Of a stretch of 64,000 nt of DNA, positions 40,045 through 44,875 are shown piece after piece. The notes under the pieces were generated by a model. The model saw only the letters and a list, made by a program, of their open reading frames with translations. It searched no databases and was not told the origin of the DNA. The position numbers were made by a program, and so were the translations under genes. The DNA is from Clostridiales bacterium (GTDB lineage Bacteria; Bacillota; Clostridia; Saccharofermentanales; Saccharofermentanaceae). Positions within the stretch are counted from its first letter, which is position 1, and each line of letters opens with the position of its first letter. Location of the stretch: the NCBI GenBank assembly GCA_017554745.1, contig JAFZHS010000019.1:1-64000 (forward strand), written 5' to 3'.

Positions 40045-40791
40045 TTATTCTTCAAGATTGAATCCGAGAATAGCCATATTGTATTTCTGGCCTTCGCCCC
40101 AGTACATGCAGCTTGCAGTACAAGTTATACCGTTTAAGGGACCATAGGTGGTGTAATTAACGTTCACATCGTCGTTGCTTTCTTCTATGGGGCTGCCGTA
40201 AATACCGGGCAGATCTGCTCTGAAGTAATCATAGTAATTCCTAAGCTGGTTCAAATCGGAACTGTGGTAGCAAAATGAGATCTCTATAACACGATTGTCT
40301 TCGTCACACCAGATGCTTAATTCATCAAAACCAAAACCATAGATTACGACGTCGCAATTGAAATCATATTCGATTAAAGTCTCGGGGTAATCATCTATAT
40401 CCGGACCGTGTACATCGTAAGTTATGGTCGAGAACTTTGTACCAAAAGCGTTTTCAAGAATGGAAACAGACGAATTGTAGTCTTGTCCCATAGCCCGGGA
40501 AATGACATCAGCTGCATCCTGTAAGCTGTGGAGCACACCTTGGGATGCGTATGTTGCTGAAGTAGTCGTTGTCGTAGGCTCTTCTGTAGTCGTCGTTGTG
40601 GGCTCTTCCGTCGTCTCGGTAATAATGACGGGATCGGTCTCCGTCTCATCACCATACTCGTGCTTATAGTCGCCGCCTTCCCTGTCTACGCGGAGGTCGT
40701 CGGAGCGGTCTTTGCCCGATGACATGCTGCACGCAGAGAGCGCGGTAACGGTTAATGCCAAAGCTAATAAGACAGATAATTTTTTATTCAT
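40045..40791 (-). CDS. Putative lipoprotein, array member 3 (248 aa)
   Basis: It has a signal peptide with lipobox LSAC (Cys21) and then the stalk RSDDLRVDREGGDYKHEYGD shared by all three array members. A Thr/Glu-rich spacer (TTEEPTTTTTEEPTTTTT) precedes a ~165-residue head that begins near LHSLQDAADVISRAMGQDYN. The head has six cysteines, more than its two neighbours. Fold and function are not recognised. It is the last gene of a three-gene minus-strand unit ending at a strong hairpin. Confidence 0.8.
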   Translation of the reverse strand: MNKKLSVLLALALTVTALSACSMSSGKDRSDDLRVDREGGDYKHEYGDETETDPVIITETTEEPTTTTTEEPTTTTTSATYASQGVLHSLQDAADVISRAMGQDYNSSVSILENAFGTKFSTITYDVHGPDIDDYPETLIEYDFNCDVVIYGFGFDELSIWCDEDNRVIEISFCYHSSDLNQLRNYYDYFRADLPGIYGSPIEESNDDVNVNYTTYGPLNGITCTASCMYWGEGQKYNMAILGFNLEE

Positions 40792-40817
40792 TGAGTATCT
40801 CCAAAAACAGTGCGGGA

Positions 40818-41537
40818 TCAGTATTTCGAGAAAGTCACATAAATGATCGAAATGCTGTCGGCATAGAAAGCGTTTACCGAGATCGTTACATCATTTTCCA
40901 ATTCAAATAATACTAAATCGTATGAATCTTCATCGTCTGTGCTGTACGGTTCACCATAAACAGCTGTTATCTGCGAGACAAGATAGTCAAAGGTCTTTTT
41001 TGCATCGCCGTCAGTTATAGTGGTTGAAAAACTCAATTCGTAGACTGAATCATTAGTTGTGTAATAAGACACATCGAAAATGTCGAAAACGACATTTCCG
41101 GCTGCTATAGCGCAGTTATACATTACCCACTTTTCATCTTCATAATCGCCCGTGTAATACTCTTCCAACGGGGTGCTTGAATAAGAGTTCAGCGCGCTCG
41201 TTGCTTCGTTATAGTGACTGCCCAGTGTGTTTATCATCAGATAACAAAACTCATCGAAGTCCAGGCTCTTGCCGGGTGTTATGTTAACGGATGAAGTGTT
41301 GTCCGTAGAAGTTGTTGTAGTTGATTCTGTAGTAGTCGTGGGAGGTTCTTCGGACGTCTCTGTCGTAACGATGGGATGAGTCTCGGTCTCGATCTCCAAC
41401 CCGTACTCGTGCTTATAGTCGCCGCCTTCTCTTTCGACGCGGAGATCATCCGAGCGGTCGCCTGATGCTTTATTGCAAGAAGCGAGAGAAGTGACTGTTA
41501 ATGCCAAAGCAATTAAGAGAGATAGTTTTTTATACAT
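40818..41537 (-). CDS. Putative lipoprotein, array member 2 (239 aa)
   Basis: Lipobox LASC (Cys20) and stalk RSDDLRVEREGGDYKHEYGL are followed by a Thr/Ser-rich spacer. The ~150-residue head contains LDFDEFCYLMINTLGSHYNE, VMYNCAIAAGNVVFDIFDVS and ITAVYGEPYSTDDEDSYDLV. The head is clearly related to that of array member 1 (same order of FW/FC-LM-N, YNCDI, EVYGEP motifs) but much diverged. It lies 26 bases upstream of member 3. No known domain was recognised. Confidence 0.8.
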   Translation of the reverse strand: MYKKLSLLIALALTVTSLASCNKASGDRSDDLRVEREGGDYKHEYGLEIETETHPIVTTETSEEPPTTTTESTTTTSTDNTSSVNITPGKSLDFDEFCYLMINTLGSHYNEATSALNSYSSTPLEEYYTGDYEDEKWVMYNCAIAAGNVVFDIFDVSYYTTNDSVYELSFSTTITDGDAKKTFDYLVSQITAVYGEPYSTDDEDSYDLVLFELENDVTISVNAFYADSISIIYVTFSKY

Positions 41538-41569
41538 AGCGCACCTCCGTTAACGTAATAAGTATAGGA

Positions 41570-42265
41570 TCAAATTGCCCAAAAGCAAACATAAAAGCCC
41601 GCTGAGTCGGTGCCGTAATAAGTGCTTACCGAATAATTCTTTTCTGATGATTCAAAGGCCACTATCTCATAGGAACTCTCGGATACAGTCGAGGTCGGCT
41701 CGCCGTAAACTTCTATCAGCTCCGCGATGATCTCATCGTTTAACTTTTTTGCATCGGCTTCATTCGCAGATATTGCAAAATCCAGTTCCAAGACCTGACC
41801 GTCAGTTATGTTATATGTAATGTTGCAAATATCGAAAGAGTAATTTCCAACACGGATGTCGCAATTGTAAAAGATCCACGCAGTGCTTTCGTCGCTGCCG
41901 GAATATGTCTCCGTCATTCCGTTAGCGGAAAAAGAGGCAATCATGCTCTCCACATCGTTATAGTTATCGCCCATCGCGTTTGTCATCTGCAAACAGAATT
42001 CCCAGAATTCCAAGCCACTGACCGGTGTCAGGTCAGTAGATGAAGAGTTATCTGAAGAAGTTGTCGTCGTTGTGGTGGGATCTTCGGTAGTTTCTGTCGT
42101 AAGGATGGGATCAGTCTCCGTCTCATTACCATACTCGTGCTTATAGTCGCCGCCCTCTCTCTCGACGTAAAGATCATCTGAGCGGTCGCTGCCAGCCATA
42201 TTGCAAGACGCGAGCGAAGTAACGGTTAATGCCAAAGCCAATAAACAAGCAATTTTCCTGTGCAT
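41570..42265 (-). CDS. Putative lipoprotein, array member 1 (231 aa)
   Basis: This is the first gene of the array, directly behind the shared promoter. It has lipobox LASC (Cys20), stalk RSDDLYVEREGGDYKHEYGN, a Thr-rich spacer and a head with LEFWEFCLQMTNAMGDNYND, IFYNCDIRVGNYSFDICNIT and ELIEVYGEPTSTVSESSYEI. The head repeats a fold seen in member 2. GGGGGAT precedes the ATG. The function is unknown; a family of surface proteins that keeps its anchor while its head diverges suggests binding of variable external partners. Confidence 0.8.
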   Translation of the reverse strand: MHRKIACLLALALTVTSLASCNMAGSDRSDDLYVEREGGDYKHEYGNETETDPILTTETTEDPTTTTTTSSDNSSSTDLTPVSGLEFWEFCLQMTNAMGDNYNDVESMIASFSANGMTETYSGSDESTAWIFYNCDIRVGNYSFDICNITYNITDGQVLELDFAISANEADAKKLNDEIIAELIEVYGEPTSTVSESSYEIVAFESSEKNYSVSTYYGTDSAGFYVCFWAI

Positions 42266-42324: not shown

Positions 42325-42402
42325 ATTGTCGGTATATATATGCGCGTAATTAAGGGCAAATGCCCTGTTTCTAGAGCTTTGAAAAAATTTTTCATAAACC
42401 CA

Positions 42403-42431
42403 TTGACATAGTAGGTATTAGCGTTTATCAT
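42403..42431 (+). promoter_or_regulatory. Promoter of the cysteine leader-metY-cysK unit
   Basis: A perfect TTGACA (42403-42408) and TATCAT (42426-42431) have a 17-base spacer. The transcript should start near 42438, about 29 bases before the leader peptide start. Confidence 0.87.
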
Positions 42432-42457
42432 ATGCGAAAATCAAACGAGAGAGGAGG

Positions 42458-42517
42458 ACGGAAGTTATGTACGACCGTAAGTTCTATTTCCAGTCATTAG
42501 TCCGCAGTAACTTCCGT
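42458..42517 (+). repeat. Inverted repeat around the leader peptide start
   Basis: ACGGAAGTTA (42458-42467) is perfectly complementary to TAACTTCCGT (42508-42517). The first arm sits between the GGAGG site and the leader ATG, including its A; the second ends just before the first Cys codon. Further short alternatives (AACAG-CCG-CTGTT and GCTGTT-CC-AACAGC, 42545-42565) overlap and exclude each other. Confidence 0.65.
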
Positions 42518-42583
42518 TGTGGACGAATGTGTTGTTCTTGTTCAAACAGCCGCTGTTCCAACAGCACAACTATAACTATTTGA
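42467..42583 (+). CDS. Cysteine-rich leader peptide upstream of metY-cysK (38 aa)
   Basis: This small gene has a very strong site (GAGGAGG, ten bases before ATG). It encodes 38 residues with five Cys within thirteen positions (RCGRMCCSCSNSRC, residues 17-30) and ends with TTITI before TGA at 42581-42583. The codons TGT TGT TCT TGT form the core. It lies 29 bases after a good promoter and 23 bases before metY. Cys-codon leaders that sense charged tRNA-Cys are known in other bacteria. Here the setting in front of cysteine and homocysteine synthesis genes makes an attenuator the natural reading, though direct proof is absent. Confidence 0.8.
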   Translation: MYDRKFYFQSLVRSNFRCGRMCCSCSNSRCSNSTTITI

Positions 42584-42606
42584 ATTAAGAAAGGAATAAC
42601 ACAACT

Positions 42607-43887
42607 ATGTCTAACTATAAATTTGAAACTCTCCAGCTCCACGTAGGCCAGGAACAACCCGATCCCGCATCCGATGCACGTGCAGTCCCGATTTACGCAA
42701 CAACATCTTACGTTTTCCGCAATTCAGCTCATGCTGAGGCACGTTTCGGCCTCGCTGACGCAGGCAACATCTACGGCAGACTTACAAACTCCACACAGGG
42801 AGTTTTCGAAGACCGTATCGCAGCACTCGAAGGCGGCGTAGCAGGTCTCGCAGTAGCATCCGGCGCAGCAGCTATCACTTATACCATTCAGGCTCTCGCA
42901 GTTAAGGGCGAGCACATCGTAGCACAGAAGACGATCTACGGCGGCTCTGAGAACCTTTTAGCACACACACTCCCTCTTTATGGTATCGAGACAACATTCG
43001 TCAACATCCATGATCTGGACGAGGTAAAGGCTGCCATCAGACCTAACACAAAGGCTCTCTACATTGAGACATTGGGCAACCCTTCATCTGATATCCCGGA
43101 TATCGAAGCCCTCGCTAAGATCGCTCACGAAGCAGGCATCCCGCTCGTTATCGATAACACATTCGGTACACCTTACCTTATCAGACCTATCGAGTACGGT
43201 GCAGATATCGTAGTTCACTCAGCTACAAAGTTCATCGGCGGCCACGGCACGACATTGGGCGGCGTTATCGTTGATTCAGGCAACTTCGACTGGGCAGCTT
43301 CCGGCAAGTATCCCTGGATCTCAGAGCCCAACCCGAGCTATCACGGCGTTAAGTTCACAGAGGCTGCAGGCAAGGCTGCATTCGCAGTTTATATCAGAGC
43401 TATCCTCTTAAGAGACACAGGTTCATCGATCTCACCTTTCGCAGCATTCCTTTTGCTCCAGGGCACAGAGACATTGTCACTCAGAGTTGAGCGCCACATC
43501 GAGAATACAAATAAGGTATTGGAATACCTCACAAATCATCCGAAGGTTGAGAAGGTCTTCCATCCCGCACTCGCAGATCACCCCGATCACGAAGTCTACA
43601 AGAAGTACTTCCCCAACGGCGGCGGTTCGATCTTCACATTCAATGTTAAGGGCGGCAAGAAGGAAGCATTCGACTTCATCGACCACCTCGAGATCTTCTC
43701 GCTTCTGGCTAACGTTGCTGACGTTAAGAGCCTTGTTATCCACCCGGCAAGCACGACACACTCACAGCTTTCCGAGGAAGAGCTTAATGACGTAGGCATC
43801 TATCAGAACACGATCCGTCTCTCGATCGGCACAGAGCACATTGATGACATTATCGCAGACCTTGAAAAAGGCTTTGCAGCCATCTGA
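42607..43887 (+). CDS. metY: O-acetylhomoserine sulfhydrylase (PLP-dependent)
   Basis: A 426-residue Cys/Met-metabolism PLP enzyme that adds sulfide (or a thiol) to O-acetylhomoserine, giving homocysteine. It opens FETLQLHVGQEQPDPASDAR, as MetY does. The PLP lysine lies in HSATKFIGGHGTTLGG; YIETLGNPSSDIPD and VIDNTFGTPYL are also typical. The long insert (ASGKYPWISEPNPSYHGVKF) separates MetY from cystathionine synthases and lyases. It is the first enzyme gene after the cysteine leader, with AAAGGA before its ATG, and cysK follows 55 bases later. Confidence 0.94.
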   Translation: MSNYKFETLQLHVGQEQPDPASDARAVPIYATTSYVFRNSAHAEARFGLADAGNIYGRLTNSTQGVFEDRIAALEGGVAGLAVASGAAAITYTIQALAVKGEHIVAQKTIYGGSENLLAHTLPLYGIETTFVNIHDLDEVKAAIRPNTKALYIETLGNPSSDIPDIEALAKIAHEAGIPLVIDNTFGTPYLIRPIEYGADIVVHSATKFIGGHGTTLGGVIVDSGNFDWAASGKYPWISEPNPSYHGVKFTEAAGKAAFAVYIRAILLRDTGSSISPFAAFLLLQGTETLSLRVERHIENTNKVLEYLTNHPKVEKVFHPALADHPDHEVYKKYFPNGGGSIFTFNVKGGKKEAFDFIDHLEIFSLLANVADVKSLVIHPASTTHSQLSEEELNDVGIYQNTIRLSIGTEHIDDIIADLEKGFAAI

Positions 43888-43942: not shown

Positions 43943-44875
43943 ATGACTAAGATTTACACATCAGCAGATCAACTTATCGGTAAGACACCGCTTCTTGAAT
44001 TAACACATCTCGAAAAGCAGCTCGGCCTTGAAGCAAAGCTCGTTGCAAAGCTTGAGTACTTCAATCCCGCAGGCAGCGTTAAGGATCGTATCGCTAAGGC
44101 AATCATCGAAGACGCAGAAGCAACCGGCAGACTTAAGGAAGGCAGCGTCATCATCGAGCCTACAAGCGGCAATACCGGTATCGGATTAGCCTCCGTTGCG
44201 GCAGCTAAGGGTTATCGTCTCATCATCACAATGCCTGAGACGATGAGCGTTGAGAGAAGACAGCTCATCAAAGCATACGGTGCAGAGCTCGTTCTCACAG
44301 AAGGCGCTAAGGGCATGAAGGGCGCGATCGCAAAGGCTGAGGAACTCGCAGAGCAGATTCCGAACTCCATCATCGCCGGCCAGTTCATCAACCCTGCAAA
44401 TCCTAAGGCTCACAGAGAAACAACAGGTCCTGAAATCTGGGAAGATACAGACGGCGAAGTAGATATCTTCGTTGCAGGCGTAGGCACAGGCGGAACAGTT
44501 ACAGGTGTCGGCGAATACTTGAAGTCACAGAAGGCATCCGTAAAGGTCGTTGCAGTCGAGCCTGCTGATTCTCCCGTTCTGAGTAAGGGCACTGCCGGTG
44601 CGCACAAGATCCAGGGTATCGGCGCAGGCTTCGTACCTGATGTCCTCAATACAAGCGTCTACGACGAGATCATCCCCGTTACCAACGACGATGCGTTTGC
44701 TACAGGAAAGCTCCTCGGCAAGAACGAAGGCGTCCTCGTAGGAATCTCATCCGGTGCAGCTCTCTGGGCAGCTATCGAACTCGCTAAGCGTCCCGAGAAT
44801 AAGGGCAAGACGATCGTAGCATTGCTCCCTGACACAGGTGACAGATATCTCTCAACACCGTTATTCCAGGAATAA
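43943..44875 (+). CDS. cysK: Cysteine synthase A (O-acetylserine thiol-lyase)
   Basis: A 310-residue PLP enzyme making cysteine from O-acetylserine and sulfide. The lysine lies in [14 protein letters not shown], the substrate loop is [12 protein letters not shown], and the phosphate loop is [15 protein letters not shown]; the end [15 protein letters not shown] is standard for CysK. GGAGGAG precedes the ATG. It is the last gene of the sulfur-assimilation unit and is followed by a long hairpin. Regulation by the upstream leader would cover both enzymes. Confidence 0.96.

Follow-up and report, generated by a model that had tools for sequence, protein, structure and literature searches.

The stretch of Clostridiales DNA that we analyzed, 64,000 nucleotides long and termed the window here, carries a small, cysteine-rich reading frame in front of a sulfur-assimilation gene, and this arrangement raised a question: does the frame control the gene and, if so, what does it sense? 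A sequence-only reading had proposed that ribosomes stall at the Cys codons, making the frame a cysteine-responsive attenuator of metY-cysK. The physical features named in that reading are real. The frame occupies positions 42467–42583 of the forward strand (38 codons plus TGA) and encodes MYDRKFYFQSLVRSNFRCGRMCCSCSNSRCSNSTTITI. The ribosome-binding site, described as excellent, is the Shine-Dalgarno (SD) sequence AGGAGG (42452–42457, forward), 9 nt before the leader ATG; the strong promoter is TTGACA-17-TATCAT (42403–42431, forward), an 11/12 match to consensus. Five Cys codons indeed fall within thirteen positions (residues 18, 22, 23, 25, and 30), including TGT TGT TCT TGT; Cys makes up 1.4% of the codons in the long ORFs of the window. 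The leader stop lies 23 nt from the ATG of metY (42607–43887, forward), an O-acetylhomoserine/O-acetylserine sulfhydrylase gene (NCBIfam TIGR01326, 617.5 bits, above the cut-off), which is followed by cysK (43943–44875, forward), encoding cysteine synthase A (TIGR01139, 461.6 bits, above the cut-off). On the reverse strand, three tandem paralogous lipoprotein-like genes of the SDDLRVEREGGDYKHEYG repeat family (40045–42265) diverge from metY.

Is the frame more than a chance ORF? We surveyed 115 genomes of the window's GTDB family and read the upstream regions of 89 metY genes. The leader peptide was present in approximately 20 close relatives, with 89–97% identity in most of them (about 18); in the cultured isolate Ruminococcaceae bacterium YAD3003, it was 95% identical. 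The 89 upstream regions presented three leader types, of which the window's (type 1) reads N[FY]RxGRM followed by Cys or by a stop. In the class at large, the pattern AAYTWYMGNNNNGGNCGAATGTG was matched in 23 of 391 genomes from about fifteen families, and the reversed control pattern matched none of the 391. Twenty-one of these matches precede metY; the other two precede MetQ-type lipoprotein genes. CGA was part of the pattern that selected these loci; it played no part in the selection of the family upstream regions, in a scan of named genomes, or in a relaxed search. The named-genome scan, in which the final Arg codon was left free, returned at least 80 loci, and about 72 of those listed are real leaders, all from Clostridia except for four rumen spirochaetes, Treponema zioleckii included. 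Their targets are metY, MetQ/NlpA lipoprotein genes and, in two Treponema, an MtaA/MtbA-like methyltransferase gene (with weak model scores). The four loci from rumen Treponema/Spirochaetaceae (L225, L226, L248, and L265) carry a Clostridia-type leader before metY or the methyltransferase-like gene, which suggests horizontal transfer.

An unbiased census of the class found the core in 14 of 81 readable metY upstream regions. Another 21 carry CGAATG, mostly inside a short, SD-led ORF (e.g., MKQKWCKLLRHNWRNGRM, MGECYIFRMCLCCCGK, and MKANIQRRYCRM, the first and last of these complete to the stop). Four profile matches in the phylum outside of Clostridia (E ≥ 8e-4) were taken as chance. No NCBIfam or Pfam model matched any of six leaders at E ≤ 10, and the literature searched, mostly excluding subscription papers, held no description of the leader family, of its CGA-AUG signature, or of a Clostridia metY leader. 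What we found is a short, SD-led ORF that precedes metY and is kept in relatives. Judged by the persistence of the peptide in close relatives and the class-wide recurrence of its core, the ORF is not a product of chance; the same comparisons place it in a family of leader peptides, probably regulatory and hitherto without a name, that spans the Clostridia and has the core LxRxN[FY]RxGRM.

The features fixed across this family differ from those that first drew attention to the locus. The sequence-only reading had called for a comparison of relatives; this bore out conservation of the peptide, but what is held in common outside the close clade is LxRxN[FY]RxGRM (N-F-R-C-G-R-M at 42509–42529, forward, in the window), and the Cys run is kept only within that clade. 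Among 118 non-redundant type 1 leaders, the position after GRM is Cys in 83, a stop in 29 (UGA 25, UAA 3, UAG 1), Trp in four, and Gln and Arg in one each. A UGN triplet after AUG was considered as an invariant and discarded when the relaxed pattern returned UAA, UAG, CAA, and CGC. Control codons for the pathway's products are present, Met almost always and Cys in most leaders.

The Arg codon before the Met is CGA in 116 of the 118 leaders (42524–42529, forward, for the window's CGA-AUG pair, the proposed stall point). Both exceptions are from Treponema, whose leaders have AGG, CGC, or CGG there. The Arg three codons upstream is encoded by CGT (43), AGA (30), CGA (16), CGC (16), AGG (7), and CGG (6), and of the 579 Arg codons in long ORFs of the window, 1.2% are CGA. 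CGA is overrepresented ahead of Cys as well: 33/59, against 35/311 ahead of other residues. The excess persists beyond the family of the window (10/20 against 25/206, P = 1.4e-4). Could CGAAUG be an RNA motif that acts regardless of frame? Counted by frame relative to SD-led ORFs (in-frame first), the sites split 29:1:4 across the class and 54:0:2 within the family, which rules this out: CGAATG is nearly always aligned with the codons of the leader, so the constraint is on codons. In-frame CGA-AUG also occurs in leaders with unrelated peptides, i.e., types 2 and 3 and five others (L341, L358, L365, L367, and L386). The slowness of CGA probably stems from the I-A wobble pair in the P site. Measurements inside the Salmonella his leader show that CGA slows translation (PMC4046918).

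How might events in the leader reach metY? All RNA structure values given here are thermodynamic predictions. In the window, the Cys-Cys-Ser codons UGUGUUGUUCUU (42528–42539, forward) form a 12-bp helix with AGGAAUAACACA (42592–42603, forward), the SD and spacer of metY, burying the former in a duplex of −16.0 kcal/mol; predicted accessibility of this SD is 0.30 in the free RNA and 0.53–0.55 once a ribosome occupies CGA-AUG-UGU. For the set of 89 leaders, the SD has an accessibility of 0.36, compared to 0.53 for dinucleotide-shuffled (P = 1.2e-9) and 0.44 for synonymous-codon-shuffled sequences (P = 1.7e-5). Parking a ribosome at GRM raises the mean from 0.35 to 0.60; accessibility increases by more than 0.2 in 54 of 97 leaders and decreases by that much in none. 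In many leaders, the partner of the SD is UUY-CGN-UUY (codons F-R-F) directly before GRM or else the codons directly after it, two stretches that a ribosome halted at GRM would cover.

Relatives show changes on both strands that keep or improve the pairing with the metY SD. In genome G051, AAU replaces the second UGU (C23 to Asn) and the SD side changes to match (GGAAUUAUUAC); in G027 and G082, UCC is paired with AAUAAUAC; and in G082, the third Cys codon of the run has become UUU (C25 to Phe), with a stronger helix (−18.0). This covariation was read from pairwise duplexes because MAFFT misregistered the SD in the multiple alignment (A2).

The sister leaders offer a second view of the same control problem. 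Type 2 leaders (e.g., MSATYRKSMCMCMMPCWYEMEIECFSCHVDDQDTRM; L018, L021, L008, L017, L020, and L014) and type 3 leaders (e.g., MYRIQNMMCCRMLYSRAVLLSGRCCALK; L074, L076, L078, and L032), all upstream of metY, are rich in Met and Cys codons. A search for terminators and antiterminators, which took in types 2 and 3 along with some of type 1, predicted both elements for the two sister types; the window's leader yielded no convincing terminator. In both sister types, leader codons for C-F-S-C (GCUUCUCUUG) or Y-S-R-A (ACUCCCGGGCA) pair with the 5' arm of the terminator (shuffle P of 0.003–0.017 in most cases). By prediction, then, alternative RNA structures govern an SD or a terminator in these leaders. 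Species of one genus with similar or near-identical MetY can have non-homologous terminator/antiterminator leaders, and MetY is up to 98% identical between carriers of types 1 and 2; the control element has evidently been exchanged while the gene stayed.

We consider it somewhat better than an even bet (a probability of about 0.55) that the frame at 42467–42583 serves as leader to a translational attenuator of metY-cysK, one that works through the ribosome and senses the supply of methionine and cysteine. The leader probably switches metY on when either amino acid is short, with the Cys codons as an optional part. With both plentiful, the ribosome would cross CGA-AUG-UGU-UGU-UCU-UGU and reach the stop, and the vacated Cys-codon stretch would pair with the metY SD, silencing the gene. 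With Met-tRNA or Cys-tRNA scarce, the ribosome would pause at AUG or UGU behind the slow, rare CGA, cover the anti-SD arm, and allow translation of metY. The pause at CGA-AUG-Cys, the identity of the signal, and the direction of control are what we infer. Three points lead us to favor codon sensing: CGA-AUG and CGA-Cys turn up repeatedly in leaders whose peptides are unrelated, the sister types abound in Met and Cys codons, and a switch that is on in shortage and off in plenty suits genes of biosynthesis and uptake. Since CGA-AUG (Arg-Met) is the invariant part, cysteine is no likelier a signal than methionine. Several points count against this reading, however. Many leaders have a single internal AUG and no Cys codon, whereas classical attenuators repeat their control codons; N[FY]RxG is kept through synonymous change, which points to a role for the nascent chain that starvation at codons does not need; the Treponema leaders lack CGA before Met; initiation of the leader itself requires Met; and the predicted fold of the window's leader is only modestly better than shuffled sequences (z of −1.8).

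The chief rival, which we hold to be possible but tentative, is that a small molecule from sulfur metabolism triggers arrest by the nascent chain LxRxN[FY]RxGRM: the ribosome would halt while Met occupies the P site, ahead of transfer of the peptide to Cys or of release at a stop, and thereby free the metY SD. It owes this rank to conservation at the amino-acid level: conservation reaches back as far as 10 positions from the C-terminal Met while synonymous codons vary freely, as expected for the stretch ahead of the stall codon in an arrest peptide such as TnaC. Further, the 29 leaders that end exactly at GRM recall the stalling of TnaC-type leaders at their ends, and Treponema retains the peptide but not CGA. 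A peptide motif leaves the recurrence of CGA-AUG in unrelated peptides unexplained, however, and no obvious ligand signals methionine shortage. If arrest does occur, the family would represent Clostridia-wide regulatory nascent peptides that halt at CGA-AUG on a sulfur metabolite, joining a tunnel-acting peptide to an obligatory rare-codon step; we view this, too, as a conjecture with the odds against it. Codon sensing and nascent-chain arrest can coexist.

A sensor of Cys-tRNA pure and simple, with stalling at Cys codons only, is improbable. The proposal draws on the conservation of all five Cys codons in the window's close clade, the prevalence of Cys after GRM, and the Cys-codon leaders documented in actinobacteria (PMC1262725). 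Yet the invariant codon pair is CGA-AUG, about a quarter of the homologues stop directly after GRM, many of them without any Cys codon, and the losses of C23 in G051 and C25 in G082 left the SD pairing intact or better; a general role of the Cys codons as the only sensor finds no support here, and they are optional in the family. The part of the original proposal that survives is the attenuator leader itself, which class-wide conservation of the peptide, predicted SD sequestration, and the terminator/antiterminator sister versions all favor. Sensing of cysteine remains plausible within the window's own clade, where the conserved Cys run doubles as the anti-SD arm.

Other layers of control were also considered. 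T-boxes, S-boxes, and CymR had been named as the usual regulators of such genes in Clostridia, and the S-box does precede metY at four other loci of the class (L390, L397, L400, and L404). Yet the window contains no Rfam element at gathering or relaxed thresholds, and no S-box, T-box, or other Rfam family was found in 20 family loci scanned, which were mostly leaderless. An operator-like palindrome of the CCTA-N9-TAGG type, CCCATTGACATAGTAGG (42399–42415, forward), overlies the −35 box. The form CC[TC]A-N9-T[AG]GG occurs in 67 of 89 family metY upstream regions, vs. 2 of 89 base-shuffled ones, and sits at the −35 box in most family members whatever their leader type; this putative operator likely provides a second control layer at transcription initiation. 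A repressor resembling Rrf2/CymR, acting there to control metY transcription with the leader secondary, would be in keeping with these counts and with the two Rrf2 genes in the genome. As the principal regulator, it is nonetheless a long shot: it accounts for neither the conservation of peptide and codons nor the SD sequestration, and only 13 of 81 class-wide metY upstream regions have the palindrome. Control by the leader and at initiation may coexist.

Leaderless relatives share another palindrome before metY, at most 200 nt from the gene, such as GTTATAGG-N5-CCTATAAC or GGTTATCA..TGATAACC, with conserved sequence after it (L065, L066, L070, L073, L079, L068, L031, L062, L089, L090, and L093). 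This region has no Rfam match; a riboswitch was set aside, as the region more closely resembles an operator plus promoter, and it is probably an activator operator with its promoter. Finally, that the window's frame encodes a functional Cys-rich small protein, such as a metal or redox peptide, is scarcely credible: five Cys in 38 residues would befit one, but the whole part after GRM varies among homologues or is missing from them, and the position beside metY is fixed.

The leader family would constitute a widespread, unnamed regulator of methionine and cysteine genes in Clostridia where a riboswitch was not found. It also shows, in nature, one rare codon (CGA) maintained ahead of a Met or Cys codon throughout a bacterial class, and this constraint makes testable whether slow P-site codons sharpen the sensing of amino-acid starvation. 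Because metY genes that are nearly identical lie, within a single genus, behind either a probable translational attenuator or a terminator-based one, it is possible to trace how one control element replaces another.

How does this leader compare to known systems? Leader attenuators, Cys-codon ones included, are already known; it is the LxRxN[FY]RxGRM family and its CGA-AUG signature that are new to the literature we searched. The cysteine-responsive poly-Cys leaders of mycobacteria (Canestrari et al. 2020, as cited in PMC13236596) and their actinobacterial counterparts are likewise short Cys-codon ORFs before sulfur genes, with translational attenuation proposed and no terminator. The present leader differs in its clostridial host, its SD, its fixed core, its CGA-AUG pair, and its optional Cys; the Cys run is not its conserved element, as the 29 of 118 leaders that stop right after GRM attest. 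The uORFC-8-2 motif before cysS in Rhodobacterales also uses Cys as control codons in an upstream ORF (PMC8632094), but there two tandem Cys codons serve a transcription terminator system, at another gene in another phylum, without the GRM core. TnaC-type arrest peptides share conserved residues before a stall at the last codons; in contrast, the target here is biosynthetic, the codons CGA-AUG are constrained, and there is no known ligand. The S-box (SAM) riboswitch, which controls metY in other Clostridia, is absent from the window and the near relatives scanned. Lastly, types 2 and 3 resemble the classical his/trp-type transcription attenuators in having control codons, an antiterminator, and a terminator, whereas the window's type 1, without a terminator, is predicted to act on the SD of metY.
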